A stretch of 64,000 bases of DNA, taken from Anabaena sp. UHCC 0204 (GTDB lineage Bacteria; Cyanobacteriota; Cyanobacteriia; Cyanobacteriales; Nostocaceae). The first letter of the stretch is position 1. Every line of letters begins with the position of its first letter. The notes below the pieces were generated by a model. It had not been told where the DNA came from. It worked only from the letters and a program-made list of their open reading frames with translations, and ran no database searches. Shown here piece after piece: positions 1-15,622 of the stretch. Location of the stretch: assembly GCF_009711975.1 (NCBI RefSeq), contig NZ_VIKW01000026.1, positions 1-64,000 of the forward strand, written 5' to 3'. Made by a program: the position numbers and the translations under genes.

Positions 1-2361
1 GTTATCTTTTCCTAACTTTGCTTGAATTTTATCAATGAATTCTGCTAATTTACGCTTATTTTGGATATAAACTATAAATTGTTCAACTGCGGATTTTTGG
101 AGAAGATTTTGAATATCTTGAAAAATTTGCTCTTGGATTTTTTTCTCCAAGTTAGATTTATCGCGTAATTTGACTTTATCGGTAAACCTACAAGATTCAA
201 TAATAATTTGATAATTGATAGTTAGACTTTTCGCTGGATATGTATTGGTATTAATGATGATAGCAGGTAAATTTTTAAATGTGAAAGATTCCACTGACAG
301 AGGTTCAATGTTTGCTTCTGCTTTCCGAAAAAAGACTTTATTTGGTTCGGGAGTAGTATCTTCTAAATGTTGACGAATGACATTTTTATCAACTATAGAA
401 GCATCAGCAACAATAATTTTAGTATTGAAACCATTTTCGAGAGATGCTAATTTATATTCTCTCACTATTTTGTGAATTCCATCTAAAAATTCTACTCCTC
501 CTTCATCTCCAGTAATTTCATCTATCATAATAAATAGATGTTTGATACGACGAGAAATTTTTCGCATTTTCTCTGGGAAAACTGTATTCTCTGTTGTATT
601 ATATGCGTCACTAAATATTTTAGTGAGATGTTTTAAAGTATCCCCATAATCTGTTTTTTTCAATGACTGTGTGGAAGTAGTAGCAATAATTTGGTTATAT
701 TTTTCACAGCTAATGAGGTTATATAAACCTTCACAGATACTATTTAGAACTCCTTTGGTTTTTTGTCCTATATCTTGAAATGTATCATCAGTAATATGTT
801 TAAGTCTATCTTTGCGTCTAGCTTTTCTTTGAATATTTTCACTGTTGAGAAAATGAACTCCTCCTAAAGTAAAATCATCTTGATGTTGGTTTGATGTGTA
901 TGCGACTGAATATTTACCCCAGTTATCTTGAATTAAATGACTGTGGGAATTGATTGCAAAAATTCTGTTATCAACTAATTTTCCAGTTTCGTGATTTTTA
1001 AATTTCTCGATAATGTCAAGATTGACTTGTTTACGGGGACTAACGTAGAATAAAAGAAAACCATCATCTTTGTGTTGTGTGAGAAAATCCACGATAGCAG
1101 TAGTTTTTCCAATTCCCGGATTTCCAGTTAAGAAGATGTAGGTATTTTTGGAAAGGAGATATTGTTTAATTAGTTGATTATGTGCTTGTCGGAAGTTGGG
1201 ATTTCCGGTTAAATTCAAAGTAGAAATTAACTCTGGGGGTACGGTTGCGACAGAGTTGTAAAATTCTGTGATTTTTTCGGTGTAAGTTGGTAATATGTTG
1301 ATGGTATCTGGACTAATTTCTAAAAGTGAGTTAACAAATTCCTTTCCTTGATCAAAACTAGTACAAGCAGCACGTTTAATTCTATCGAGAACTTTGTGGC
1401 GTGCGTCGGTAATTTCTGCGGGACTGCTATCATATTTATAGATTTGATAACAGGTTTGGAAAATGTCGAGATCCTGTGCTGGAATAGAGATGGTATTGAA
1501 TGAGCGATCGCTATATCCAACTGCATTACATACCAACTGTGATATATCTGGAATCATCGTCGTTTTTTCCAGAAACTGACAAAAGCTATAAATATAACCA
1601 GCAGCTTGAATTAATTTCGCGCTTTCTTTATCCTTCAATTTAAAAGCTGTAAAATATTCCTTTAAACTTGGGGAAAAATCTAAACCTAAAGATTCGGTAT
1701 CAATTCGCAAACTAGAAAATACACTTTTAGAACGAATATAGTTAACATCTCGCATTAATAAGCGACGAATAATTTCTACATAATCAATATTTTCCATATC
1801 TTCGTCAGTGTGAATCGAAAATACTGACAAGTCAAGACATAAAACCCGATATTTGCGTTTATATTTCAATAAAATTAAACTATCAGCATTGAGAAAATCA
1901 CCTTTACCTTTATATGTATCAATATAATTTGCAGGATTTTCTAAATTTTTAAACTGGGAAAAAACATCTTTAAACCATTGTTGATGATTAACTTCATGAG
2001 TACCAATGCTGTTATCCCCATTAAAACAACATTGATAATATAAAATGTCTAAATGTCGAAATTTTGCTGGTTCATTACATCCAATAGAGTTGATATATTC
2101 CTGAAAGAAATTTAAACCACATAAAAACCCTTTCTGAACAAAAAATTGACACCAGGTATCAGCTATTTCTCTGTCTAGGTTGCTGATAACTTTCCTAACT
2201 ATGGTTTTTCTAATTTCCGAAAATTTGAGATGTTTAAGTTCATCATGGTATAAATTTCCAAAGCAATTTTTGATTTGGTTTTTGTGAATATAAGATAAAA
2301 TACCAATATTAAATCCTACTTCAAATAATCTTCCTAAATCATCTGCTATTTTTGCTGTCAT
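1..2361 (-). CDS. Large P-loop ATPase/helicase-like protein (5' part; runs off the left edge)
   Basis: An uninterrupted minus-strand frame runs from an ATG at 2361 to the window edge, giving 787 residues without a stop. An in-frame TGA lies a few codons upstream of this ATG, so the start is well placed. Residues 413-421 read GNPGIGKTT, a clear Walker A loop. LFIMIDE near residues 609-615 is a plausible Walker B. Near residue 765, QFIVYIQNKRKLAEFI resembles the start of a second RecA-like helicase domain, suggesting a superfamily 1/2 motor. The first ~400 residues have no domain I recognise. No membrane segment is seen. The gene lies 160 bp downstream of the phototaxis operon on the same strand, but repeats in the gap suggest a separate unit. 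Function is unknown; nucleic-acid or defence work is only inference. Confidence 0.75.
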   Translation of the reverse strand, partial: MTAKIADDLGRLFEVGFNIGILSYIHKNQIKNCFGNLYHDELKHLKFSEIRKTIVRKVISNLDREIADTWCQFFVQKGFLCGLNFFQEYINSIGCNEPAKFRHLDILYYQCCFNGDNSIGTHEVNHQQWFKDVFSQFKNLENPANYIDTYKGKGDFLNADSLILLKYKRKYRVLCLDLSVFSIHTDEDMENIDYVEIIRRLLMRDVNYIRSKSVFSSLRIDTESLGLDFSPSLKEYFTAFKLKDKESAKLIQAAGYIYSFCQFLEKTTMIPDISQLVCNAVGYSDRSFNTISIPAQDLDIFQTCYQIYKYDSSPAEITDARHKVLDRIKRAACTSFDQGKEFVNSLLEISPDTINILPTYTEKITEFYNSVATVPPELISTLNLTGNPNFRQAHNQLIKQYLLSKNTYIFLTGNPGIGKTTAIVDFLTQHKDDGFLLFYVSPRKQVNLDIIEKFKNHETGKLVDNRIFAINSHSHLIQDNWGKYSVAYTSNQHQDDFTLGGVHFLNSENIQRKARRKDRLKHITDDTFQDIGQKTKGVLNSICEGLYNLISCEKYNQIIATTSTQSLKKTDYGDTLKHLTKIFSDAYNTTENTVFPEKMRKISRRIKHLFIMIDEITGDEGGVEFLDGIHKIVREYKLASLENGFNTKIIVADASIVDKNVIRQHLEDTTPEPNKVFFRKAEANIEPLSVESFTFKNLPAIIINTNTYPAKSLTINYQIIIESCRFTDKVKLRDKSNLEKKIQEQIFQDIQNLLQKSAVEQFIVYIQNKRKLAEFIDKIQAKLGKDN

Positions 2362-2428
2362 ATTTTGGTTTGTTTCCGTTCACATACTTACAGCGATTTT
2401 CGGGTAAATGAATCACATTTTATATCTC

Positions 2429-2453
2429 ACGCAAAGGCGCAAAGACGCAAAGG
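2429..2453. repeat. Short dispersed repeat (GCAAAG-type)
   Basis: Three imperfect copies of a CGCAAAG unit stand in tandem in the spacer between the left-edge gene and the CheA-like gene. Such units are scattered through Nostocales spacers. No function is visible. Confidence 0.5.
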
Positions 2454-2518
2454 AAGAAAGGAATAGAAAAATTAGCGTGTGGTACAAATACATGAAAACT
2501 GCTGTAATTTGGAAATTT

Positions 2519-5500
2519 TTATTTACCTGCTGTTATTAATCCTTGAGTTGAATTTTCCTGATTTTTGTTAGCTAAACTATCAACAGTAGAGAGAAACTCA
2601 TGTTCTAAATAAGGTTTAGTTAAATAGGAATTTGCCCCTAATTCGTAAGCTAATTGACGATGTTTCTCCGCACTCCGAGAAGTGAGAACAACAACTGGTT
2701 TCTTAGCAAAATCTGGGTTTTGACGGATATGGCTTAATAATTCAAATCCGTTCATGCGCGGCATCTCTAAATCAGAAATAATTACTTCAATTTCTGGATG
2801 TAACTGCAATTGTTCTAAAGCTTCTACACCATTTTGGGCTTGTAATACTTGATAGCCAGATTTTTGCAAAGTCAAAGAAAGAGTTTGCCGCAAACTAATG
2901 GCATCATCTACTACTAAAATCACCTTTGGTAATTTGCTATTTCCTGACACATTAGCAGTTAGCTGTTTTTGGGTATTAATTGCTGGAGTAGATGTAGTAA
3001 TCAATGGTGTAGAGGTAATAGTTTCCTCTGACATTGGCAAAGCTTGTGGGGATGTCATAGGTAGTGACATGACATCCAATGTGGCTTGCATTTCTTTAGT
3101 ATCAATCAACAAAGTTCCATCAATAACTAAGATCAAGTTACCATTAGCTAAACTACTACAACCATAAACATATTTTGGTGGAGTCAGAGAATTTCCTAAT
3201 GGTCTAATTACTAATTCTTGTTCCCCAATAATTTGGTCAACTTCTACCCCTACCATTCCATGATGACGACGCAGTAAAATGATGGGATTTTTTACCATTC
3301 CTGCGTCTGAAGCATCGTGGATATTTTGCAGATTATTGGTACTCAGAACTGCGCCATTGTAATACATCAAACTCTCTAATTTTTGGAGGCTGACCATCAA
3401 TTCATCATCATCTGTGCGCCAATGTAAAAATTGTTTGCCTTCAAATTCTTTGATTTGTTGAGCAGAGGGAATAACTATTTTTTCAATACTATCTTGTAGT
3501 AAAGCATAAATAACGCCACCTGCCTGAACTAACATGAGTTTATCTGTAGTCATAGAAAAAGGAATTTTAAGGATAAATGTTGTTCCCTGATGCGGAGATG
3601 ATTGCACTGAAATTGAGCCGTTTAGTGATTGTAACTGGGTACGCACAATATCTAAACCCATACCGCGGCCTGAGATTTCACTGACTTTACCAGCGGTAGA
3701 AAATCCAGGAGCAAACATCATTTCTATTAGTTCAGATTCGCTGAGGTGATGAACATAATCTCCACTATGATCATCGGGAATCAGATTCAGTTCTATGGCT
3801 CTAGTCCGGACTTTTTCTAAGTTTAAACCTTGTCCATCATCATGGATTTCAATAACAGTTTGACTACCCTGATTATAGGCGCGAATTTCAATAATACCTT
3901 GGACTGGTTTACCTCTTTCTTGACGAAGTTCGGGAAGTTCAATACCATGATCAAAAGAGTTGCGTACTAGTTGTAAGAGAGGATCATACAGCTTTTCCGC
4001 GATCGCTTTATCAACTAGAACTTGTGTACCAGTAAGTTTTAATTCTACCTGTTTTCTATAAACGTTGGCTAGATTTTGCACCATTTGCGGGAAGCGACTC
4101 AGGATAGTTCCTAAAGGTAACATTCTCGCTTCTACCAAGTTATCTATAATATTCAGGGTTAAAGTCTGTTTTTTGTCACTGATTTGAGTAGCTTGTCTCA
4201 TCAACAATTCCAGAGATTCCGAAGTTTCTTGGATTTGCAGAGTTTCTTCCATTGCTGTGTGTAATGTCAATTGAAACTCTGAATATACATCCATTTCTAA
4301 AGAATCGAAATTTACTGTACTCACTGATTGAGTATTGTCAGATGTGACATTATTCCCTTGTAATGGTAAATCCCGTAATTGATATAAAGTTAGTTGGTGT
4401 TGGTTAAGTTGCTGGCTTAATCTATCAATTAGTTCTATAACTTGATCATCGTATAAAGTCCGTCTTTTTTGATAAATTAATAATTCACCTGTGAGGTAAT
4501 TAAGGCGTTGTAATCCTTCAACATCTACCCTCACAAAAGATGGTTGACGGGAGTTTTTATTAACAGTATCGGTTGTTTTCTCTTCTACTTGTTGATTAAT
4601 TTTTGTAGTCTCATCATCTGTGATCACCTCTTCACTGACTGCTGATAATGTCACACTTTCTAAATAACTATCATGATTAACAGCTTCGGCTGTTTCTATA
4701 ATTTGCGTGGTGACTATTTCCTCATTACTATCTGCAATAGTTTCTCCTCCCCATATTGATTCCAAGAGATTATTACTATCTTCAAGGAACAACGCAGGAG
4801 ATATTTCTTTGATAACTAGCAAATCTTGTAACTTAGGATGATCAAGCCATTTCTTTTCGGCTTCAGTGACTGGGGGGTAATTTTTATATTCTTTGCCTAA
4901 TTCGCGGATTTGCTGCCTTAATCTTTTGATAATAGGGATAGCACTGTTATTTTGCTCAATAGTGTATTGGAATTTAGCAATTGCGAGGATAATAATTAAA
5001 ATTACACCACGACGATAAAGAGATAAAGAGTGACTATCTTCTTCATTTTCTATAAAGAAAAGAAATTCTTCTAACCACCCTTCTAGATAATTTACAGGAG
5101 ATTTTTCACTAGGTGGAGGAATTAATAAAGAGAGATTTAGTTCTAACTCTGGTGTTTCTCTGTAGTGGTTAAACCAGCCAAAAATATAACGAATTACTTT
5201 TAAATAAAACTTGGCATTAGCTGGTTTTAAAGGTTCATTATTGCCATTACTAAGTGTGATTAAAAACTGATAAAAATTAGCAGTAAGATTAAAAAATGTC
5301 TCTGCAAAAGATTGGTGAATAGATGTAATAGACGGCTCATATTTGGGGACTGTAGCCAAGGAACTGGTTGTTGATACAGGAGAGGAATAATCGTCTGTAA
5401 TCTGTGCCAGTGCTTGTAATTCTGGAGATGGTGAACCTCCGGAACTGCGATCGCCTGCCAAAACATCTATTTGTGCTGCTTGTAAGTCAGATAAAGCAAT

Positions 5501-6184
5501 TTTAGCAATTTTGAATATCTGTTGAGGATTAGCATCTACAGCCGCCACAATTGTGCGTGCCAGTTTTTCCAATCCGGGGAGATTTAAAGATTCTGCCAAG
5601 CCGATAAATACTTCACTTTGAGAGTGTAATAATTCACAAAATTCAGCCCGATCTGGTGGATTATTAATAGCTTGATTCAGACTATCTAAACGTTGTTTTA
5701 CTCCGACTTCAAAAATAGATTTAACAATATCAAATCCTAATTCTTCTGATGTGGGAATATGAGTTTCCGCCCCAAAAGCATCACCTAATTTTTCTTGAAT
5801 TTGGGCAAATGCTGTAGTTGCTCGGTTCAAAAGTCCGTCAGCATTAATATTACTATTAGTAACTTCGGCTGTAACTGCTAATTGCAAGCATTCATAACCT
5901 TCAACTAATAGAGCTTGTAATTCCCCATCAATAACAACATTGGGACTATATAAAGCCTTAAATATATCTTCCAAAGAATGGGCAATTGTCATGATGGTAT
6001 CGAGTCCAACATTGGCTGCTCCACCCTTAATCGTGTGGGTTGCCCGCATTAAATTATGGACTTTAGCTGTACTAGAATTGTCAACTAAAGTAAATAAATC
6101 TTGTTCAATAGTTTGTAATAATTCGGGGGCTTCACCGAGGAAATAGGCATAGCCCTGTTCTCGAATTGCTGGATCTGTAATCAT
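2519..6184 (-). CDS. pixL: CheA-type hybrid histidine kinase with C-terminal receiver (PixL/TaxAY-like)
   Basis: This is the kinase of a chemotaxis-like system: it phosphorylates itself and passes phosphate to CheY partners. In order it has an N-terminal Hpt domain with the phospho-acceptor motif HTIKGGAANVG (about residue 50), a long linker, a dimerisation region, a HATPase domain (N-box LVRNSFDHGIE, G-box GRGMGLDIV), a CheW-like domain and a C-terminal CheY receiver with the DLEMP phosphorylation site. The frame opens at 6220, but those first 12 codons lie in a short tandem repeat. I therefore prefer the ATG at 6184, where Hpt homology begins (MITDPAIREQGYAYF). It is the last gene of the five-gene operon, 89 bp after the receptor. 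The layout matches PixL, PilL/HmpE and PtxE-type kinases; the cyanobacteriochrome receptor next door favours phototaxis. Confidence 0.88.
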   Translation of the reverse strand: MITDPAIREQGYAYFLGEAPELLQTIEQDLFTLVDNSSTAKVHNLMRATHTIKGGAANVGLDTIMTIAHSLEDIFKALYSPNVVIDGELQALLVEGYECLQLAVTAEVTNSNINADGLLNRATTAFAQIQEKLGDAFGAETHIPTSEELGFDIVKSIFEVGVKQRLDSLNQAINNPPDRAEFCELLHSQSEVFIGLAESLNLPGLEKLARTIVAAVDANPQQIFKIAKIALSDLQAAQIDVLAGDRSSGGSPSPELQALAQITDDYSSPVSTTSSLATVPKYEPSITSIHQSFAETFFNLTANFYQFLITLSNGNNEPLKPANAKFYLKVIRYIFGWFNHYRETPELELNLSLLIPPPSEKSPVNYLEGWLEEFLFFIENEEDSHSLSLYRRGVILIIILAIAKFQYTIEQNNSAIPIIKRLRQQIRELGKEYKNYPPVTEAEKKWLDHPKLQDLLVIKEISPALFLEDSNNLLESIWGGETIADSNEEIVTTQIIETAEAVNHDSYLESVTLSAVSEEVITDDETTKINQQVEEKTTDTVNKNSRQPSFVRVDVEGLQRLNYLTGELLIYQKRRTLYDDQVIELIDRLSQQLNQHQLTLYQLRDLPLQGNNVTSDNTQSVSTVNFDSLEMDVYSEFQLTLHTAMEETLQIQETSESLELLMRQATQISDKKQTLTLNIIDNLVEARMLPLGTILSRFPQMVQNLANVYRKQVELKLTGTQVLVDKAIAEKLYDPLLQLVRNSFDHGIELPELRQERGKPVQGIIEIRAYNQGSQTVIEIHDDGQGLNLEKVRTRAIELNLIPDDHSGDYVHHLSESELIEMMFAPGFSTAGKVSEISGRGMGLDIVRTQLQSLNGSISVQSSPHQGTTFILKIPFSMTTDKLMLVQAGGVIYALLQDSIEKIVIPSAQQIKEFEGKQFLHWRTDDDELMVSLQKLESLMYYNGAVLSTNNLQNIHDASDAGMVKNPIILLRRHHGMVGVEVDQIIGEQELVIRPLGNSLTPPKYVYGCSSLANGNLILVIDGTLLIDTKEMQATLDVMSLPMTSPQALPMSEETITSTPLITTSTPAINTQKQLTANVSGNSKLPKVILVVDDAISLRQTLSLTLQKSGYQVLQAQNGVEALEQLQLHPEIEVIISDLEMPRMNGFELLSHIRQNPDFAKKPVVVLTSRSAEKHRQLAYELGANSYLTKPYLEHEFLSTVDSLANKNQENSTQGLITAGK

Positions 6185-6201
6185 AATAATAATGGAAAAT
6201 T

Positions 6202-6273
6202 TACAATTGACAATGGACAACGAAGAATGGACAATTGATAATTGTCAATTATCAATTGTCAATTATCAATTAA
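6202..6273. repeat. Short tandem repeats between pixJ and pixL
   Basis: The gap between receptor and kinase consists of a CAACGAAGAATGG stretch followed by alternating CAATTGATAATT / CAATTATCAATTG units, which are self-complementary and could form a hairpin. Related TGACAATTG units recur near 63361-63413. This repeat creates a spurious early ATG for the kinase frame. Confidence 0.7.
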
Positions 6274-9200
6274 CTATTTGACCTTAAACTTACTAGCAGT
6301 TGCTAATAAATCCTGTGCCATTCCGGTTAAACTTTGGAAGACATTGGCAATTTCCTGCGATTCTCCAAAGGTTTTGTTAGCAATTTCTGCCACATCATTC
6401 ATAGATTTAGTGACTGTACCAGATTGCTGCATTTGTGTTTGGGTGGCTTCAGTAATGCGTTCAATCAATTGACTAATTTCCGCCGTTGCAGAAACGATCG
6501 CATTCAGGTTTTGGCGAGTGTCATTAACTAAATTTGTCCCTTCCACAACTTGCTGAATCCCTGTTTCCATAGCTACGGCCACTTCTCCAGTTTCTGCTTG
6601 AATCTCCTGGACTAATTTTTCAATTTCGATAGTTGCTGCTGCTGACTGACGAGATAAAGAACGGACTTCATCAGCTACCACTGCAAAGCCTTTACCATAT
6701 TCACCAGCCCTAGTTGCTTCAATAGCCGCATTCAGAGCGAGAACGTTGGTTTGAGTTGCAAAGCTACTAATCAAATTTACCACTTTGGAGATTTTTTGCG
6801 ATGACTCACTTAGACGTTTAATCTTTTTACTGGTTTGAGCTACGGTTTCTCGAATGGCTTGAATAGCATTAACTGTTTCATTCATGGCGGTATCACCAGA
6901 ATCTACAGTTTTATTGGCTTGTTGAACGGCTATCTGCACTAATTGGGCGTTGTTAACTACCGCTTGGGTAGAATTTACCATCTGTTGCAAATCACCCAAG
7001 GCTGTAGTGATTTCGTCAGATTGTTGTTTAGCTAAATGAGTCAATCCCACCAGTGAGGTACTGCTGTTAGTAGAGGTTTCGGCTACTTTTTGAGAAGATG
7101 ATTGCACCTGGAGAACGATTTGTTGTAGTGCTTGCAGAGTGCCGTTATAAGCGTCAGCAATAGTCCCTACTTCATCTTCTGTAATGGGGGCGCGAACCGT
7201 CAAATCCCCTTTGAGAGCGGGTTTAACAGCCATCAGCAGTTGAATAGAACGCTGTTGGAGTAATTCTTTAGCTGCTTTTTCTCTAGTAGCTGCTTCTGAT
7301 AGTTTAGCCGATTGGGTTTGTAACTGTTGCAAGAATTCCGTTTGTTGCAAAGCTAGTCCTAGTTGATCACCAATCCGCGCTAACAGGTTGGTTTCTGACT
7401 CTTCCCAATGACGGGTACTAGAGTTTTGATAAACTGCCAATAATCCCCAAAGTTTTTCACCGAAGAGAATGGGAACAATTGCATAGGCTCTGGCTTCAAA
7501 TCTTTCCAGAATTTCAATGTAGCAAGTATCAAAACTGGCTTCATAAATGTCACTGACTATTAACTTGTTACCTTTTTTATATTCACCGCCGTTCATTGCT
7601 TGTAAACAAGGGTCATCAAAGGCAGTTTTCAGTTCAGGTGTAACCAGTTTTATCCAACCTGTGGCTACTGATTCCGCGACGAAATTACCACCCCAATCAG
7701 ATGTAAATTTATAGACTGCGGCGCGATCGCATTTGAAGAGTTGACGGATATCCTGAGTTGTGGATTTGAAAATTTCTTCGATTCCAGAATTTAAGGATTG
7801 ACGAATTTGGTTAACTATCTTGGAAAAGGTTTTTTCCTGTTCAACTGTCTGGGCGATTTTTGCTGATTGTTGGCGTAATTTATCGAGATAATCAACTTGA
7901 GATTTAGCAAGGCTAAATTGTAAGCCTATTTGAATTAAAAAGTTAACTTCTGAAGATTGCCATTCCCTTGGTGCAGAGTTTTGATAAGCTGCTAATAAGC
8001 CCCATAATTTTTCTTCAAAGAAGATGGGAACGATCATGTAGGCTTTGACTTCTATCTGCTCTAAAATCTCGATATGACATTGAGCATGGCCGACTTGATA
8101 GATGTCATTAACTACGAAAGTTTCACCTTTGGCATATCTACCACCTTGGGTTTCTTGGAGGTGGCTATCTGGCCAAACCATTTGGAAGTCTGGTGTTACT
8201 ACTTTTGTCCAACCACTAGCCACTGATTCGGCGATAAATTTACCACTCCAATCAGATTCAAATTGATAGACTCCGACGCGATCGCATTTTAATGCTTGGC
8301 GCACTTCTTGGGTGGTAGTTTTAAAGATATCTTCCACACCGATAGCTTGACGAATCCGCCCAACTATTTTATTAACTGCTTTTTCTTGTTCGGCTACTTT
8401 CGCTAATTCGGCAGTTTGTTCTTGAATCTTTTGGATATAGTCAATTTGAGATTTTGCGAGGCTAAATTGTAAGCCTATTTGGGTCAAAAAGTTGATTTCT
8501 GAAGGTTGCCATTCCCTGGATGCAGAGTTTTGATAAGCTGCTAATAAGCCCCATAATTTTTCTTCAAAGAAGATGGGAACAATCATGTAGGCTTTAACTT
8601 CTATCTGCTCTAAAATTTCGATATGACATTGAGCATGGCCGACTTGATAGATGTCATTAACTGCAAAACTTTCACCTTTGGCATATCTACCACCTTGGGT
8701 TTCTTGGAGGTGGCTATCTGGCCAAACCATTTGGAAGTCTGGTGTAACTATTTTTGTCCAACCACTACCCACTGATTCAGCGATAAATTTACCACTCCAA
8801 TCAGATTCAAATTGATAGACTCCGACGCGATCGCATTTTAATGCTTGGCGCACTTCTTGGGTGGTATTTTTGAAGATTTCTTCGACATTTCCGGCTTGAC
8901 GAATGCGGTTAACAATCTTATTAACTGTTTTTTCTTGTTCGGCTACTTTCGCTAATTCTGCTGATTGTTCCTGGACTTTCTGCACATAATCAATTTGGGA
9001 TTTAGCTAGGCTAAATTGCAAAGCAATTTGATTCAAGAAGTTAACTTCTGAAGGTTTCCATTCTCGCGCTCCAGTATTTTGATATGCTCCTAATAAACCC
9101 CATAGTTTATCGCCAAAGAAGATGGGAATAATCACATAGGATTTAGCTTCAAATTGTTCCAAGATTTTAATATGACAATCAGCCAAACCTATTTTATATG

Positions 9201-11226
9201 TGTCATTAACCACAAAGGTTTCACCTTTGGCATATCTACCACCTTTGGTATCTTGTAAGTAGGTATCATCCAAAACGGTTTTAATATTTGGACCAACTAA
9301 TTGTGTCCAACCAACACCTACTGACTCAGAGACAAATTCGCCACCCCAATCTGCTGTAAATTGATATACAGCAACGCGATCGCATTGTAAAGCCGCCCGC
9401 ACTTCTTGGGTAGTGGTTCTGAATATCTCTTCTGTATCTAAGGATTGACGGATTCTATTGACAATCCTATTAATCGCTTTTTCTTGTTCTGCTCTTTGTG
9501 TGAGTTCTGTTAAATAATCTATCTGGGTTTTTGCTAAACTAAATTGCAGGGCTACTTGACTCAAGAAACTCACTTCTGATGTTTGCCATTCACGAGGATT
9601 ACTATTTTGATAAGCGGCTAATAATCCCCATAATTGATCACCAAAGAAAATCGGCACATTAATATAAGCTTTGGTTTCAAATTGTTCCAGCAATTCTAAA
9701 TAGCAAGGGGTAATATTAGCAGCATAGATATCATTAACTGCAATGGTTTCTCCCTTAGCAAATCGCGCTCCTTTGGTTTCTTGAAAAAATGTATCTTCAA
9801 CCAGTTCTTTCCGTTCAGTATTAACTAATCTTACCCAACCATGACTGACTGATTCAGCTACAAATTCTCCACTAAAATCAGGGTGAAATTTAAACACAGC
9901 GACGCGATCGCATTTCAAAACCTGACGCATTTCTTGGGTAGCAATCTTAAAGATTTCTCCCATATCTAAGGATTGTCGAATGCGACTAACTATCTTTGTT
10001 AATGCTTTTTCTTGTTTAGCTATTTGTCCTAATTGTTCTGTTTGTTTCTGTACTGTTCCTAGATATTCTCCTTGGGAAACAGCTACACCAAATTGTGAAC
10101 CAATTTGATTTAAAAAGCTAACTTCCCAATCTTGCCATTCCCGCGTTCCAGTATTTTGATAAGCTGCGAGTAAACCCCATAATTTTTCTCCAGAGAAGAT
10201 GGGAGAAATGATATAAGCTTTAGCTTCAAACTGTTCTAAAATATCAATATGACATTGAGCCAAACCGACTTTATAGGTGTCATTAACAACAAAGGTTTCT
10301 CCTTTGGCATATCTACCACCTTTGGTTTCTTGGAGGTGAGTATCTTCCCAGACCATTTTGTAACCTGGAGTTACCACTTTCACCCAATTATTACCAACTG
10401 ACTCAGATACAAATTGACCACTCCAATCATCATTAAAACGATAAACGCCGACGCGATCGCATTTCAATAATTGCCGAACTTCTTGAGTAGTGGTTTGAAA
10501 GATTTTTTCAACATCTGGCTGTTGTAAAATCTTAGTTATAACTTTCGCTGCTGATTGTTTAGCTAGAGAAGATTGTTGCAGTTCTCTTTGTAACTTAAAC
10601 CCCTGAACTCGGTAAGTAATTTCTGTGGCAATTTGTGATAACAGGGTAGTTTCTGTTTCTTGCCACTGTCGCGGTATGCCACAACTATGAATTACCAATA
10701 AACCCCAAACTTTACTATCAACAAAAATTGGTAAACTTAAACTAGCTCTGACTTGAAATTTTTCTAGTAGTTGCTTTTGGTAGGGAGTGACTTGAATTTG
10801 ATTGATATCGTCAATAATTACGGGTTCTGCATAATCTTGACTGGTATAAACACCAAACAAGATAGCAGCCAGACTTTCATTAATCGCAGGTGTCCAACCT
10901 GTGGCTCTAGATTCTGCTAAGACAGTACCGATATCATCTGTGGTAAATTGGTAGATCAGGACGCGATCGCCCACCAATTTATCTCTAACTTCTGCTACGG
11001 TGACGGATAATAACTTTTCCAAATCAGGAACTTGGCGCATTCTGGTTGTTATTTCCTGAAACCGCTGTCTCCAGATTTTAAATTCTTGGGCTATTAAAGT
11101 TTTACTCGATGAATCTTGATGATTACCGTTGGCTACATTGCCATTATCTTTTTTCTTTTCTTCGCTTTGTGCTGTAGTAAAAACATTTCCAGCATCTTCA
11201 TTTGGGTTTTGATATAAAGTCGTCAT
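6274..11226 (-). CDS. pixJ: Soluble methyl-accepting receptor with seven tandem cyanobacteriochrome-type GAF domains (PixJ/PtxD-like)
   Basis: This 1650-residue receptor would sense light and drive the neighbouring CheA kinase. It has seven tandem GAF domains, whose conserved CDR/GDR motif falls near residues 88, 256, 440, 615, 799, 982 and 1166. A HAMP-like segment (about 1370-1420) and a canonical MCP signalling hairpin (VLALNAAIEATRAGEYGKGF) follow. No membrane segment is seen. GAF2, 4, 5 and 6 carry Cys-His at the bilin attachment position (Cys325, 684, 867, 1050); GAF3 and 7 have Cys-Tyr (508, 1235); GAF1 has none. GAF2, 5 and 6 keep the Trp-x-Asp pair of red/green cyanobacteriochromes (VWED, VWPD). 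GAF7 also has DPCL at 1207, exactly 28 residues before Cys1235, as in dual-cysteine DXCF proteins. Known relatives are Anabaena PixJ and Nostoc punctiforme PtxD, a receptor without membrane segments and with seven bilin sites. Bilin binding here is inferred. Confidence 0.9.
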   Translation of the reverse strand: MTTLYQNPNEDAGNVFTTAQSEEKKKDNGNVANGNHQDSSSKTLIAQEFKIWRQRFQEITTRMRQVPDLEKLLSVTVAEVRDKLVGDRVLIYQFTTDDIGTVLAESRATGWTPAINESLAAILFGVYTSQDYAEPVIIDDINQIQVTPYQKQLLEKFQVRASLSLPIFVDSKVWGLLVIHSCGIPRQWQETETTLLSQIATEITYRVQGFKLQRELQQSSLAKQSAAKVITKILQQPDVEKIFQTTTQEVRQLLKCDRVGVYRFNDDWSGQFVSESVGNNWVKVVTPGYKMVWEDTHLQETKGGRYAKGETFVVNDTYKVGLAQCHIDILEQFEAKAYIISPIFSGEKLWGLLAAYQNTGTREWQDWEVSFLNQIGSQFGVAVSQGEYLGTVQKQTEQLGQIAKQEKALTKIVSRIRQSLDMGEIFKIATQEMRQVLKCDRVAVFKFHPDFSGEFVAESVSHGWVRLVNTERKELVEDTFFQETKGARFAKGETIAVNDIYAANITPCYLELLEQFETKAYINVPIFFGDQLWGLLAAYQNSNPREWQTSEVSFLSQVALQFSLAKTQIDYLTELTQRAEQEKAINRIVNRIRQSLDTEEIFRTTTQEVRAALQCDRVAVYQFTADWGGEFVSESVGVGWTQLVGPNIKTVLDDTYLQDTKGGRYAKGETFVVNDTYKIGLADCHIKILEQFEAKSYVIIPIFFGDKLWGLLGAYQNTGAREWKPSEVNFLNQIALQFSLAKSQIDYVQKVQEQSAELAKVAEQEKTVNKIVNRIRQAGNVEEIFKNTTQEVRQALKCDRVGVYQFESDWSGKFIAESVGSGWTKIVTPDFQMVWPDSHLQETQGGRYAKGESFAVNDIYQVGHAQCHIEILEQIEVKAYMIVPIFFEEKLWGLLAAYQNSASREWQPSEINFLTQIGLQFSLAKSQIDYIQKIQEQTAELAKVAEQEKAVNKIVGRIRQAIGVEDIFKTTTQEVRQALKCDRVGVYQFESDWSGKFIAESVASGWTKVVTPDFQMVWPDSHLQETQGGRYAKGETFVVNDIYQVGHAQCHIEILEQIEVKAYMIVPIFFEEKLWGLLAAYQNSAPREWQSSEVNFLIQIGLQFSLAKSQVDYLDKLRQQSAKIAQTVEQEKTFSKIVNQIRQSLNSGIEEIFKSTTQDIRQLFKCDRAAVYKFTSDWGGNFVAESVATGWIKLVTPELKTAFDDPCLQAMNGGEYKKGNKLIVSDIYEASFDTCYIEILERFEARAYAIVPILFGEKLWGLLAVYQNSSTRHWEESETNLLARIGDQLGLALQQTEFLQQLQTQSAKLSEAATREKAAKELLQQRSIQLLMAVKPALKGDLTVRAPITEDEVGTIADAYNGTLQALQQIVLQVQSSSQKVAETSTNSSTSLVGLTHLAKQQSDEITTALGDLQQMVNSTQAVVNNAQLVQIAVQQANKTVDSGDTAMNETVNAIQAIRETVAQTSKKIKRLSESSQKISKVVNLISSFATQTNVLALNAAIEATRAGEYGKGFAVVADEVRSLSRQSAAATIEIEKLVQEIQAETGEVAVAMETGIQQVVEGTNLVNDTRQNLNAIVSATAEISQLIERITEATQTQMQQSGTVTKSMNDVAEIANKTFGESQEIANVFQSLTGMAQDLLATASKFKVK
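7898..8884. repeat. Near-identical tandem repeat encoding GAF6 and GAF5 of the receptor
   Basis: Two units of roughly 440 bp (about 7898-8335 and 8447-8884), offset by 549 bp (183 codons), are almost identical at the DNA level. This includes synonymous positions over the stretch around the Cys-His codons. The other five GAFs are much more diverged from each other. This points to recent duplication or gene conversion inside pixJ. Confidence 0.8.
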
Positions 11227-11303
11227 GCTATGAACCTCAATAATTATAGTAGGTAACGAAAAACTGGATAAACATTCTCAACTCCTTCCTTCTTCCTTCC
11301 TCC

Positions 11304-11360
11304 TGACTGGACACTGAGCGAAGTCGATAGCGTAGCGTGGCGTTAGCCATAGTGCTGACT
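11304..11360. repeat. Dispersed repeat upstream of pixJ
   Basis: The pixI-pixJ gap holds a mix of GACACTGAGCGAAGTCGATAG and GCGTAGCGTGGCGTTAGCC units, a type common in Nostocales spacers. It is GC-richer than the neighbouring DNA. It is not evidently coding. Confidence 0.45.
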
Positions 11361-11366
11361 CCTTCT

Positions 11367-11840
11367 TCAATTATGTATTGTCCACATAGAAGTTTGCAGC
11401 ATTGCTGAAGCATCCAAATTGAAAATCATTTGTTCAGAATCATTAATAAAATAACCCTGTAAAAAAGGTGTCATTTCTGGATAGAATACCTCTCCTGAAG
11501 GTTGTTTCATTTGTTGGGTATCTAACCAATCAATATCTATGAGTTGACGAATTAATATTCCCAAATATTTTCCGTCATTTTCGAGAACTAAAGCCATCAT
11601 TTTCGACAAGAAATTTGATCCTTGTAAAAGTGGTGGATAACCTAGCATTTCTTCCAAATCAACCAACCACAACATTTCCCCCCGCCAATTATAAATTCCG
11701 ACAACACAATTAGGCATTTGTGGAACACCACATATTTCTGTGAGTGGTATTTGCACAACTTCTGTAATTTGTTCTAGGGGAATGACTGCGGTATCTCTTA
11801 CTCCTAAAGAAAAGCTTAAAAATTTCTGTTTGGTTTCCAA
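11367..11840 (-). CDS. pixI: CheW-like coupling protein (PixI-like)
   Basis: A 157-residue single-domain CheW protein. It couples the receptor to the CheA kinase at the signalling array. The visible CheW features are an N-terminal FLSFSLGVRDTAVIPL strand, the conserved VVGIYNWRGEMLWLVDL core and a C-terminal half ending in a hydrophobic strand. It lies between the CheY gene (72 bp away) and the receptor (140 bp away, with a repeat), all on the minus strand. The size is normal for PixI/PilI-type cyanobacterial CheW proteins. Assignment to the pix rather than pil/hmp set rests on the adjacent cyanobacteriochrome receptor. Confidence 0.88.
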   Translation of the reverse strand: METKQKFLSFSLGVRDTAVIPLEQITEVVQIPLTEICGVPQMPNCVVGIYNWRGEMLWLVDLEEMLGYPPLLQGSNFLSKMMALVLENDGKYLGILIRQLIDIDWLDTQQMKQPSGEVFYPEMTPFLQGYFINDSEQMIFNLDASAMLQTSMWTIHN

Positions 11841-11911
11841 AATTAATTTTCCTTTACCCTAGATAATTCTGCTTAGTCACTATAAATTAGTGACTAATGT
11901 GCAATCTATTT

Positions 11912-12274
11912 TTATTTAATCAATCCTTTCAAAGTCCGCATCAATTCTTCCTTATCTACTGGTTTAGCCAGATAAGCATCAGCGCCTAACATATTTCCCC
12001 ACATTTTATCAACATCACTGCTTTTAGTGGAGCAGAAGATTACAGGAATGTTACTAGTATCGGCATTATCTTTTAATTCCCGACAAATTTCATAGCCACT
12101 TTTATCAGGTAAGATCACATCTAGAACGATGATATCTGGTTTATTTTTAACTATTTTAGATTGTGCTTCTTCACTACTTTTCGCACATATTACAGCATAA
12201 CCTTCTTGCTGCAAGTAACGACTGATAATTTCCATATCAGTCAAGCCATCTTCCACTACTAATACCGTACTCAT
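11912..12274 (-). CDS. pixH: CheY-like single-domain response regulator (PixH-like)
   Basis: A 120-residue receiver domain with no output domain. Expected phosphorylation residues are present: the acidic pair in VVEDG, Asp52 in IIVLDVILP, the Ser/Thr strand PVIFCSTKSS, and Lys in YLAKPVD near residue 102. It would take phosphate from the CheA homologue and signal to the motility machinery, for cyanobacterial phototaxis usually type IV pili. It is second in the operon, 357 bp after the PatA-like gene. That gap is long enough for an internal promoter. Confidence 0.9.
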   Translation of the reverse strand: MSTVLVVEDGLTDMEIISRYLQQEGYAVICAKSSEEAQSKIVKNKPDIIVLDVILPDKSGYEICRELKDNADTSNIPVIFCSTKSSDVDKMWGNMLGADAYLAKPVDKEELMRTLKGLIK

Positions 12275-12631
12275 GATAACTACCTATTTAATTCTTTTAA
12301 GAAAGTTAACAAAAACAGATCAAATAAACACTTTTTGGCGCTTTATTTTATCTCACTTGATACATTGTATAGATATTCCTCCATCAAATCTACGTATTCA
12401 ACATAAATTAACATACCTAATCATTAAGTTTAGGTTTGATAAGTTCTGATTAAAAAAGGTTTCTAGTCGTAGCAAGAATCAAAGTTAATTGCAGATGACT
12501 TTGTTAATGTTAACACCATCTTACTATTATTATCTCCGTAAAAATTATGAACTTTTGGAGAGATTTATAAATATAAAAGTCCGTAGAACTTTACTATCCG
12601 GTATATTGCCTCTTTTAGAGAGGGATTGAGG
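12275..12631. other. 357-bp spacer between pixG and pixH
   Basis: An AT-rich stretch without a convincing gene on either strand. A weak CCTCT/AGAGG hairpin (12609-12623) lies just after the pixG stop. It may hold a second promoter for the downstream four genes, but I see no clear -10/-35 pair. Confidence 0.4.
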
Positions 12632-13840
12632 TTATAAATTCTGATCACTGGCAGTTTCTACATGAGATCCATTGTTATTATTTGATAGACCAGGTACGCG
12701 TATATATTTACGAACTACGTTCATGACTCGATCAGCAACTATGGGTTTAGAAATAAAGTCTGTAGAACCAACGACTTTAGCGCGAACTCTATCAACCAAG
12801 CCATCATTACCAGTTAAGATAATTACTGGTGTCTCCGCAAAAGCAGAAATTCTGCGTAATTGTGTACAGATTTCATAGCCGCTGGCTATGGGCATAATTA
12901 GGTCTAAGAAAATTAAGTCTGGTTTTTCTTGAATAATGATAGGTAAGGCTTGTACAGCGTCTTGGATTTTAATAAATCTCAATCCGTAACCGGTCATAAT
13001 TTCTTCTAAAATTTTACAAACCTGGGGGCTATCATCCACACAAGCTACTAAAGGGGGAATTTGATTTCTGGGTTGTTTAGAGGTAGAGTTAACATCGGTA
13101 ACTGTGAGAGGTAAATCAGGTACTTCTACTAATTCAATAATGCCTTTGAGGATATAGGGAAGTAAGGAACGAGCCACAGGCATAACATCCTGTTTCATTC
13201 TGACGGCTAACTCTCGTAAAGTAAATTTACCATTAATTAAACTCACGAAATTCCTGTATACGGATTGATTTACGAGTTGTTGTAGTTGTTCTGGTCGGCG
13301 CAGCACGGGTGCTAAATTAGGAGAAATATTTGCTAACCCAGCTTGTGACCAAATTGCCCATGCGTCTTGCATTTGCTTGATGGACATATCTGCACTGGTA
13401 AAGCTCATTGGCATTTCTAAGATGACTTGCTGACTGCGACTACAAGTAATGGAGCTAAAATCTAGCTCTTGAGCTAGGTCAAAAAATAGCTCTGCTATGG
13501 TACTTTCGACAATGGCGTGAATTTTTTCTCTTTGAATTTTCTGTCTTTTGTATAAAATATTTAGGAGATTATAATCCCAGTAGTCAATGGCGATATCTTC
13601 ATAACGACAACGCATTTTATCCAAATCAATACCAGAAGAATATTGAGCGATGTTTCTACGCCAACGACGGAAGGGATGATCACTACCTGTAGCCCAGACT
13701 ATTCTACCCAGCCGATAGTAGAAAACCCATTGTTTCCCTTTAGAACTTTTAATATTTAGTTGTCCGTTGTATTGTAACTGAGTACATTTTTTAAACTCAC
13801 TGAAGAGGTTTTGTGCTTCTATCACGTTTTGGTTGGTCAT
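12632..13840 (-). CDS. pixG: PatA-like response regulator (PixG-like)
   Basis: A 402-residue protein with an N-terminal PATAN/DUF4388-type region (about 1-240). It contains the WVFYYRLGRIVWATGS motif typical of PatA family proteins and a later helical segment (FTLRELAVRM). A C-terminal receiver follows (about 265-385), with VACVDDS, the phosphorylation site FLDLIMP and the KPI lysine motif. PatA-like proteins head the pixGHIJL, pilGHIJL and hmpABCDE clusters and influence pilus-dependent motility or cell pattern. It is the first gene of this operon and has a long 855-bp upstream spacer. Family assignment is firm; the pix label is by context. Confidence 0.87.
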   Translation of the reverse strand: MTNQNVIEAQNLFSEFKKCTQLQYNGQLNIKSSKGKQWVFYYRLGRIVWATGSDHPFRRWRRNIAQYSSGIDLDKMRCRYEDIAIDYWDYNLLNILYKRQKIQREKIHAIVESTIAELFFDLAQELDFSSITCSRSQQVILEMPMSFTSADMSIKQMQDAWAIWSQAGLANISPNLAPVLRRPEQLQQLVNQSVYRNFVSLINGKFTLRELAVRMKQDVMPVARSLLPYILKGIIELVEVPDLPLTVTDVNSTSKQPRNQIPPLVACVDDSPQVCKILEEIMTGYGLRFIKIQDAVQALPIIIQEKPDLIFLDLIMPIASGYEICTQLRRISAFAETPVIILTGNDGLVDRVRAKVVGSTDFISKPIVADRVMNVVRKYIRVPGLSNNNNGSHVETASDQNL

Positions 13841-14044
13841 AGTTTCCTTCTTGAGAATTTATTAATTAAGTAATTGATAAAAGCGGTGATATTCATACGT
13901 TCATTAGTAAACTAGCTAATGATTCGATGAGGGAATTAAATACAGTCGGCTCGTCTAAGCTCGCACTTTGGTCTATAATTTTCTTTGTAGTCAGGCTCTG
14001 GATAAGTATTAAAAGAATTTGATGCTTTAGAGCGGATGATAATC

Positions 14045-14074
14045 TGATTTAGTAAGTTTGCTTATACTAAATCA
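14045..14074. promoter_or_regulatory. Perfect 10-bp inverted repeat upstream of pixG
   Basis: TGATTTAGTA (14045-14054) and its exact complement TACTAAATCA (14065-14074) are separated by 10 nt, about 205 bp upstream of the pixG start. The symmetry and spacing suit a dimeric regulator site or a hairpin in a leader RNA. There is no T-run, so it is unlikely to be a terminator. Confidence 0.4.
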
Positions 14075-14616
14075 AGTATATTTTAACTGAAATAAGCTGT
14101 CCTATTTGATTCACCTGTAATATTATACTCTTGTTAACCTCAATTTATATCAGTAATAATCCTTATTTTAATTATTTTTACTATTCGTCCAAGTTGGTAA
14201 TTATTCTCTCTTGTACCTTTTCCTAGTAAGGAGTTTCCTGACTAGGATTGCAGGGCAAAATTAACAATTAACAGTTAAAAAACTAGATAATACAAGCTTT
14301 GTGTAAATCTTTAATGGTTGGTTTATTTACGCAATTGTGTACTAGCAACTTAGGTTATTAGTTATATTTCATTATGTACCTGATTCCATGTTTTCAATTA
14401 AGGATTTTTTGAATTTTACGAGTATTATGTTAATTTAGTCTTCTTCTTTCACAAAAAAATACACAAAATTAAATAGCAAAGTCAAGCATATTTCCTTTGT
14501 AATGTATAAATTTTTCCACTGCTCCCTACAAGTGTTCAGAATAAGACAATTACTTAGACTGCTAATGGCATAAATTGTTTCCGAGTTTCTGTAATTCTTT
14601 CTCGGTGACTCCTGGC

Positions 14617-14676
14617 TGGGCGCAGTGAATCTTAACTGGGCGCAGTGGATATTGACTGGGCGCAGGCCCTGCGCCC
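14617..14676. repeat. GGGCGCAG repeat ending in a perfect palindrome
   Basis: Three copies of TGGGCGCAG occur with a 20-bp period. The last (14658-14676) forms a hairpin with 9-bp arms, GGGCGCAGG/CCTGCGCCC, around one base. A diverged copy of the palindrome lies at 21901-21919. It is a dispersed repeat, just downstream of murQ, and could also stop transcription. Confidence 0.7.
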
Positions 14677-14695
14677 CTACCTCATGACTTTTGCC

Positions 14696-15622
14696 CTATT
14701 TAGAAGTTTCTTGGTTATGGGTGGTGACAGCCGCGCGGATATTACCTTGATGTGCGGCTAGTAGTTGCTTACCAGCTTCTGGATCTAGACCTGTCGAGTG
14801 GATTAATAGAGCCAATTTGACCCATTTACCGCTGCGTTCTAGTAAAAAACCTGCGGCTTCTCGACTTAAGCCGGTGAAGTCTTGTAAAATCCGCAGAGCG
14901 CGATCGCGTAACTTTTGATTAGTGACAGCGACATCAACCATGCGATTACCGTAGACCTTACCTAATTTGACCATTACCCCTGTAGAAAGGATATTGAGGA
15001 CTAATTTGGTAGCTGTACCAGCTTTGAGGCGTGTAGAACCAGCTAAAACTTCTGGACCTGTCAAGAGACGAATATCAATATCCGCCTCAAAACTGACTTG
15101 TTCACTGGGAACACAAGCAATAAAAATAGTCAGCGATCCACGTTGACGAGCGGCATTAATAGCACCGTGAACAAAAGGAGTTGTTCCCCCTGCGGTAATA
15201 CCGACGACTACATCTAGTTGAGTAATTTGACGTTGAGCGATCGCTGTTTCTCCATCTTCAGCCCGATCTTCTAAATCTTCGGAACTGCGGACTAATGCAC
15301 CAGCCCCCCCAGCAATAATTCCCTGTACCAATTCTGGAGGAGTACAGAAGGTGGGTGGACACTCGGCCGCATCTAATACTCCTAACCTGCCACTTGTTCC
15401 TGCACCCACATAAAATAAACGGCCACCTTGACTGAGCCTGTGGGCTGTACGATCAATAGCTGCTGCTAATTGAACTTTAGCTTCTGCGACTGCGGCTACA
15501 GCTTTTTGGTCTTCGCTATTAAATAACTCTACCAATTCTAGAGAGTTGAGTTGGTCTAAGTTGAGACTATGAGGATTGACTTGTTCGGTGAGTAGATGCC
15601 CGCGTTCCTGGAAATTTGTCAT
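14696..15622 (-). CDS. murQ: N-acetylmuramic acid 6-phosphate etherase
   Basis: MurQ cleaves the lactyl ether of N-acetylmuramate 6-phosphate to give N-acetylglucosamine 6-phosphate and D-lactate, in cytoplasmic cell-wall recycling. The 308-residue length is normal. The SIS sugar-phosphate isomerase fold is marked by GRLFYVGAGTSGRLGVLDAA followed by ECPPTF, the family signature that includes a catalytic glutamate, and by the later GITAGGTTPFV and GSTRLKAGTATK loops. The C-terminal helical region ends in the usual LLAAHQGNIRAA. No kinase or transporter partner is adjacent. It is preceded by a short spacer of GTCAGT repeats and DUF3110 on the same strand. Confidence 0.95.
   Translation of the reverse strand: MTNFQERGHLLTEQVNPHSLNLDQLNSLELVELFNSEDQKAVAAVAEAKVQLAAAIDRTAHRLSQGGRLFYVGAGTSGRLGVLDAAECPPTFCTPPELVQGIIAGGAGALVRSSEDLEDRAEDGETAIAQRQITQLDVVVGITAGGTTPFVHGAINAARQRGSLTIFIACVPSEQVSFEADIDIRLLTGPEVLAGSTRLKAGTATKLVLNILSTGVMVKLGKVYGNRMVDVAVTNQKLRDRALRILQDFTGLSREAAGFLLERSGKWVKLALLIHSTGLDPEAGKQLLAAHQGNIRAAVTTHNQETSK

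Follow-up and report, generated by a model that had tools for sequence, protein, structure and literature searches.

A seven-GAF PixJ-type photoreceptor in Anabaena sp. UHCC 0204 with a candidate two-cysteine sensor beside its signalling domain

How does a photoreceptor with seven GAF domains relate to the light-sensing systems already described, and which colours might it read? The question is raised by a gene in a 64,000-nucleotide stretch of DNA from Anabaena sp. UHCC 0204 (contig NZ_VIKW01000026.1, positions 1 to 64,000 of the forward strand; hereafter the window), in which a single unbroken open reading frame (ORF) on the minus strand, 6274-11226, encodes a receptor of 1650 amino acids. 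An original prediction had described it as soluble, with up to six candidate bilin-binding GAFs and a layout resembling PtxD of Nostoc punctiforme. Our analysis favours the reading that the receptor is a PixJ enlarged to seven GAFs and encoded, in a Dolichospermum-type host, by a pix operon like tax1, and we give this explanation as a whole a probability of about 0.72. Hosts of this type are bloom-forming cyanobacteria. What the sequence itself shows is kinship with PixJ, the operon, canonical bilin-site cysteines in six GAFs and a second cysteine in the last GAF.

A Pfam scan of the receptor returned seven GAF domains (E 1.3e-158) and one MCPsignal domain (E 5.4e-40), the latter typical of methyl-accepting chemotaxis proteins (MCPs). 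No membrane stretch was seen in the receptor, whose highest 19-residue Kyte-Doolittle mean is 1.52; the predicted soluble, seven-GAF architecture thus held. The gene is the fourth of five in a minus-strand operon that encodes, in order, a DUF4388-receiver protein, CheY, CheW, the receptor and CheA with a receiver. We take the DUF4388 domain to be of the PATAN type. Two marks of a PixJ-type system are present, namely a GAF array fused to an MCP signalling domain and an operon with PATAN-CheY, CheY, CheW and CheA. The gene order itself is not diagnostic of the PixJ type, because a PtxD-type locus in our comparison set (L076) has the same five-gene order, as read on a stretch whose contig ends below its CheA. 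The pix-type operon proposed in the original prediction accordingly stands, while the contrast it drew with ptx, for which duplicated che genes are reported, was not confirmed.

Kinship was assessed in a set of 46 proteins, consisting of the receptor and 45 of 47 chosen match regions (not a random sample); the remaining two, L101 and L102, had no frame passing both the MCP and the GAF filters and were dropped. GAF trees were all built without GAF1 and held 99, 65, 66 and 65 rows, with split hits of insert-containing GAFs merged by script. Named relatives of the receptor come from Dolichospermum sp. UHCC 0259 (91% identity in the best segment, residues 1-1650), Dolichospermum sp. LEGE 00240, Anabaena sp. 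UHCC 0187 and a bin of an uncultured cyanobacterium, and point to Dolichospermum as the probable genus of the window. In the tree of the C-terminal signalling region, the receptor falls in an eight-row clade of its genus (support 100/99) within a 14-row clade (100/97), which lies in turn within a 29-row PixJ-type fork (93/82) and a 36-row group (100/99) that leaves out the PtxD-type L076 and nine other rows. The individual domains tell the same story: the phylogeny of each GAF, named in the original prediction as a check, places GAF2 with AnPixJg2 and GAF7 with NpR6012g4. One four-GAF PixJ among the 46 proteins has a fourth GAF that shares 95% identity with NpR6012g4.

Having placed the receptor among PixJ proteins, we turn to its GAFs. 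The canonical bilin-site cysteine is present in GAF2 to GAF7 (residues 325, 508, 684, 867, 1050 and 1235). The Trp-x-Asp pair is found in GAF2, GAF5 and GAF6, whereas GAF3, GAF4 and GAF7 have Val, Leu and Phe, respectively, in place of the Trp; Cys-Tyr occupies the bilin site of GAF3 and GAF7. The six cysteines, three Trp-x-Asp pairs and two Cys-Tyr sites listed in the original prediction were thus recovered in our alignments. GAF2, GAF5 and GAF6 combine the WXDXXL motif with the canonical Cys-His and so qualify as extended red/green (XRG) domains. GAF3, GAF4 and GAF7 lack this combination, yet the tree places them among XRG domains and they retain equivalents of Asp291 and Tyr352 together with the canonical Cys. 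In GAF3, the equivalent of Tyr302 is Phe and that of Trp289 is Val. By sequence, these six GAFs fit bilin-binding cyanobacteriochrome (CBCR) domains of mixed types, as had been proposed, and several colours could therefore be integrated by one protein.

GAF1 was said in the original prediction to have lost its Cys. The residue is indeed missing, but a recent loss is not supported, because the first GAF lacks a bilin-site Cys in 45 of the 46 rows (only L103 differs, and there the first hit is partial and the frame 787 aa long). The absence is therefore old, and GAF1 is probably a long-standing, bilin-free first domain. Its structure model has good confidence (mean predicted local distance difference test score, pLDDT, 88.9) and a CBCR/phytochrome-like GAF fold.

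The domain adjoining the MCP region, GAF7, holds a feature absent from the original prediction. Cys1207, in the motif FDDPCL, falls in the second-Cys column of DXCF domains, and GAF7 is therefore a candidate two-cysteine sensor. It agrees with the DXCF motif at the Cys position and has Leu instead of Phe after it. GAF7 carries both cysteines whichever its descent. All 14 members of the receptor's clade combine DPCL with Cys-Tyr in their last GAF, versus none of the other 15 rows of the PixJ-type fork, three of which have Cys-Tyr without the second Cys. In a near PixJ relative (L096), the last GAF, GAF5, is a true DXCF domain with VDHCF and Cys-His, which suggests that last GAFs are replaceable. 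Rockwell et al. 2017 are said to be the source for XRG GAFs that regained the DXCF Cys. Isomerisation to phycoviolobilin and reversible ligation are reported for such domains (PMC11284453).

We then considered how the array came to its present length. The receptor is present in eight of 16 genus genomes, with seven GAFs in three, six in two and five in three; for the other eight, neither a receptor orthologue nor an orthologue of its CheA was found (genomes 93-100% complete by table). At least 21 changes in GAF number are required on the 46-row tree. After GAF1, the window's receptor has the order Trp (GAF2), Cys-Tyr (GAF3), LDD (GAF4), Trp twice (GAF5, GAF6) and DPCL (GAF7). Eight rows of the PixJ-type fork have four GAFs; in these, GAF2 is of the Trp type throughout, GAF3 is of the LDD type in four and of the Trp type in four, and the last GAF is of the Trp type in seven and has Cys in one. 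In this last domain (L099 GAF4, 8745-9287), Cys replaces the Trp (CEDTHL) and the bilin site reads Cys-Tyr; green/teal cycles have been tied to the CXDXXL motif (PMC11284453). Two sister-genus rows, L068 and L069, have seven GAFs as well, with the Trp type where the window has Cys-Tyr. A further seven-GAF receptor type is represented by L077 and L078 (genomes G085 and G110), whose last GAFs are true DXCF domains (VDHCF) and which stand apart as a pair in the MCP tree (100/100).

The adjacent GAF5 and GAF6 are alike in DNA, with 92% identity over 501 bp. Divided into 60-bp blocks, the pair shows 95-97% identity in the six that follow the first block, the two end blocks reach 75% and 65%, and the longest identical run is 87 bp. 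The corresponding pair in L039 has a 227-bp identical run, with 86.7% identity overall and 73% and 62% in the end blocks. Equal-numbered copies of GAF5 or GAF6 compared across the three seven-GAF genomes (six comparisons) are 72-93% identical in the same six blocks. When differences were placed at random, a run as long arose in none of 2000 trials for the window or L039; in L040, L068 and L069 it arose at rates of 0.001, 0.15 and 0.0015, respectively. The patchy likeness likely stems from gene conversion or unequal crossing-over. Array length would shift through tandem copying, loss and gene conversion among neighbouring GAFs. More tentatively, at a little under even odds, the colour palette of PixJ may have been retuned by GAF copying, deletion and conversion, with the MCP-adjacent GAF turned from a red/green into a two-Cys blue sensor. 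If so, a blue-referenced motility output would be modulated by a variable red/green stack, in Dolichospermum and its sister genera.

A separate observation concerns the HIP1 palindrome GCGATCGC. It occurs seven times in the receptor gene, once per GAF, at the same Cys/Gly-Asp-Arg codons, with a density of 1.41 per kb versus 0.51 per kb elsewhere in the window. Across the 28 further rows of the PixJ-type fork, the same GAF site carries it in 116 of 140 cases, compared to 14 of 78 in the remaining rows.

How might such a receptor work? GAF2, GAF5 and GAF6 would be expected to bind phycocyanobilin and switch between red and green, because they share 17, 18 and 18, respectively, of 19 chosen AnPixJg2 pocket positions. 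The Trp missing from GAF4 is the residue that binds ring A of the bilin and stacks against its ring D. GAF4 would accordingly switch from a blue-shifted dark state, which is likely because two domains with Cys at the Trp position have yellow or orange dark states (PMC11284453). GAF3, which is atypical in its Val, its Phe for Tyr302 and its Cys-Tyr, may also bind a bilin. In GAF7, the bilin could be linked to both Cys1235 and Cys1207, the latter as an adduct to C10, giving a blue/violet dark state that converts to a longer-wavelength form. The GAFs would stack as one soluble rod whose joint states set the MCP tip; via CheW, the tip would tune CheA, and phosphate passed to CheY and PATAN-CheY would bias type IV pilus motility. 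By analogy with Synechocystis PixJ1 and tax1 (PMC5812497), such a chain from light through GAF, MCP and CheA to the pili is likely for the receptor's operon. One bilin reductase match was found in the genome.

The notion that Cys-Tyr means no bilin was considered and rejected. NpF2164g5 has Cys-Tyr, as read from a primer in PMC7504144 and also in GAF5 of L076, and its BV4 variant binds biliverdin (PMC7504144), with the residue after Cys left unchanged according to a comparison of two AnPixJg2 chains. Likewise, miRFP670nano carries an introduced H87Y and binds biliverdin (PMC6336887).

Two other explanations of the receptor as a whole deserve weighing. It might be the PtxD of its lineage, and so an essential phototaxis receptor. 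PtxD has no membrane domains, and none was seen in the receptor. Seven GAFs with six candidate bilin sites are likewise as in PtxD (PMC5812497), and since the other MCPs matched in the genome lack GAFs with a bilin Cys, this one could fill the role. The comparison was made through L076, which we call PtxD-type because two residues of NpF2164 (PtxD), the insert Cys546 of GAF3 (PMC5240096) and the GAF5 position Leu962 (PMC7504144), both line up with it when a common offset of 12 is applied. Beyond the 100/99 split in the MCP tree, a topology forcing the genus clade and L076 together was rejected by the approximately unbiased test (p-AU 0.0079, to be read with caution as L076 is a long branch), and orthology to PtxD was rejected on these grounds. 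GAF2 to GAF7 measure 177-183 aa, none with a long Cys insert, versus 210 and 205 aa for GAF2 and GAF3 of L076. The gas vesicle genes described directly upstream of PtxD and cotranscribed with it (PMC6495340) have no counterpart in the adjacent upstream gene, the only one considered, which encodes a SIS/GKRP-like protein. A single clade of the nine seven-GAF rows was also rejected (p-AU 4.7e-07); judging from these trees, the seven-GAF state arose more than once, and the likeness to PtxD that the original prediction had seen holds for GAF number while kinship beyond the family is not supported. We regard identity with PtxD as very improbable. A different possibility, which we consider unlikely, is that only some GAFs (e.g., GAF2, GAF5 and GAF6) carry a chromophore and that GAF3, GAF4 and GAF7 are decaying spacer copies, much as Synechocystis PixJ1 binds bilin at one of its two GAFs (PMC5812497). 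All three domains, however, keep the canonical Cys and the Asp291 and Tyr352 equivalents. Decay would not be expected to leave the LDD type in half of the eight four-GAF PixJ rows and DPCL with Cys-Tyr in all 14 rows of the clade, and Cys-Tyr is shared by NpF2164g5.

The remaining alternative concerns GAF7, whose second Cys might be an ancestral DXCF residue that was kept, or one taken from a DXCF domain, rather than regained within the red/green lineage. The trees differ on this point. With two DXCF rows as outgroup, the DPCL rows joined them (97/77, a node not starred), although a clade of the 15 last GAFs without the DXCF rows was not rejected either (p-AU 0.366). In a larger tree with eleven DXCF rows and the motif columns removed, DXCF domains and those of the red/green lineage split at 100/100 and the DPCL rows nested in the last-GAF clade with NpR6012g4 (100/99); the topology joining DPCL to DXCF rows received p-AU 0.215 and was not rejected. 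The true DXCF last GAF of L096 also shows such a domain in a near relative. On the other side, the DPCL rows nest with L083_g4 (99/88) in a tree with a red/green outgroup, and the best PDB match of GAF7 is NpR6012g4 (1.2e-70), with TePixJ far weaker (2.5e-22). Descent from a DXCF domain thus appears quite unlikely to us, and the second Cys was most likely regained inside the red/green lineage, from an NpR6012g4-like domain.

Several points nevertheless weigh against parts of the favoured PixJ explanation. GAF7 has Leu for Phe after the second Cys and Tyr for His after the canonical one, so that a productive two-Cys photocycle is not assured. Its structure model is poor in the pocket (pLDDT <50 at domain residues 47-85 and 103-112); a fold search with the model returned a CBCR-type GAF, the best being 3w2z (TM score 0.70 by query length). 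The conversion test by run length ignores constraint and serves as a guide only, and one cross-genome pair, L040 GAF6 and L041 GAF5, is 97% identical in the central blocks. Biological role is the weakest step. Phototaxis in N. punctiforme reportedly needs the ptx cluster and not the NpR6012-type cluster (Campbell et al. 2015 are said to be the source). The PixJ of Phormidium lacuna is described as a negative regulator of photophobotaxis, and the one Dolichospermum tested responded to light slowly and irregularly after 6-7 days (both PMC13383048).

The rest of the genome bears on this role. Four MCPs were matched, and the receptor is the only one having GAFs with a bilin Cys; among the other three, a lone GAF occurs in one, where the site reads Ser-Tyr, and the remaining two are without GAFs. 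The receptor may therefore carry the whole task. Matches of the pilB/pilT type are present, as are three CheR matches, none of them in the receptor operon. The idea that pixJ tracks pilB across the genus was rejected, with a long PilB-type match (668-682 aa frame) in seven of eight genomes with pixJ and six of eight without. One genome (G005) has pixJ without a long PilB-type match, and two (G002, G007) have no T2SSE family match at all; type IV pili may have been lost in some genus genomes. Elsewhere in the window, 26183-31159 on the minus strand encodes a hybrid histidine kinase of 1658 aa that contains CHASE3, PAS, three GAFs, two receivers and Hpt; a stretch of this kinase matches the receptor GAFs at 34% identity.

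Features of the receptor and its operon in the window
Feature	Position	Strand	Basis or remark
pixJ-type receptor gene, seven GAFs and MCP	6274-11226	-	Pfam, ORF
GAF1, Tyr-Gln at bilin site, no Cys	10555-11073	-	alignment, structure model
GAF2, WEDTHL and Cys325-His; with AnPixJg2; predicted red/green	10021-10563	-	alignment, trees
GAF3, VEDTFF and Cys508-Tyr; atypical	9484-10014	-	alignment
GAF4, LDDTYL and Cys684-His; Trp to Leu	8944-9486	-	alignment, tree
GAF5, WPDSHL and Cys867-His; predicted red/green; GAF6 duplicate	8395-8937	-	alignment, tree
GAF6, WPDSHL and Cys1050-His; predicted red/green; GAF5 duplicate	7846-8388	-	alignment, tree
GAF7, FDDPCL and Cys1235-Tyr; candidate two-cysteine (DXCF-like), adjoins MCP	7291-7839	-	alignment, trees
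Cys1207 codon, candidate second Cys	7606-7608	-	alignment
MCP signalling domain of receptor	6382-6927	-	Pfam
HIP1 sites in receptor gene	7723, 8278, 8827, 9376, 9904, 10453, 10963		string count
CheA-type kinase with receiver (PixL type)	2519-6184	-	ORF opens at 6220 (TTG)
CheW (PixI type), TTG start	11367-11840	-	Pfam
CheY (PixH type)	11912-12274	-	Pfam
DUF4388 and receiver protein (PixG type)	12632-13840	-	Pfam

Some details of the operon can be added. For CheA, the internal ATG at 6184 is a likelier start than the TTG at 6220, because six homologues in the genus align from residue 11 onwards and one from residue 5. The 53 nt between the receptor and CheA ORFs hold an AT-rich hairpin of 14 pairs (6230-6260). 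The PATAN-type gene is separated from that of CheY by 357 nt (12275-12631), which is large for an operon, and a second promoter could lie there. Promoter-like matches in 2200-14700 were at chance level, with 38 found and 39.8 expected. Compared to NCBIfam, the five operon proteins reached the cut-off of no listed model (the best 25 where more matched).

If several of its GAFs are photoactive, this one protein may compare several colours. PixJ proteins with four, five, six and seven GAFs form a natural series in which the MCP ends are kindred and the operon is the same, and which would make it possible to ask what each colour sensor adds. The second Cys in the output-proximal GAF offers a testable case of two-Cys photochemistry re-arising among red/green sensors, and the receptor is a source of several small candidate bilin domains for optogenetics. 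Between one and five GAFs are reported for PixJ (PMC13383048), and seven for PtxD (PMC5812497). Searches of open-licence literature, none of them worded for exactly that, turned up no PixJ that has seven GAFs and two cysteines in the GAF next to its output domain.

The closest known systems are AnPixJ of Anabaena/Nostoc PCC 7120 and NpR6012 of N. punctiforme, each with four GAFs. The receptor resembles them in GAF2 (close to AnPixJg2) and in its last GAF (close to NpR6012g4), and shares its MCP clade and operon order with the four-GAF loci near them. Unlike them, it has seven GAFs, including an extra GAF3 with Cys-Tyr and a doubled GAF5/GAF6, and its last GAF has neither Trp nor His and carries the second Cys of DPCL. 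With PtxD (NpF2164) of N. punctiforme it has in common seven GAFs, an MCP output and a che-type gene cluster, but it differs in MCP clade and GAF lineages and in having its second Cys at the DXCF position; the long insert-Cys GAFs of the PtxD-type L076 are absent from it. SyPixJ1 and TePixJ, the blue/green PixJ proteins, are likewise members of the PixJ family with a two-Cys GAF adjoining the MCP region, in their case a domain of the DXCF lineage. This likeness would be convergent, because GAF7 groups with red/green domains. XRG GAFs with a regained DXCF Cys, as described in PMC11284453, share the second Cys at the DXCF position; GAF7 differs from them in having DPCL rather than DXCF, together with Cys-Tyr. 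If the retuning suggested above is correct, the receptor would have converged on SyPixJ1 and TePixJ at its output-proximal domain and on PtxD in GAF number.

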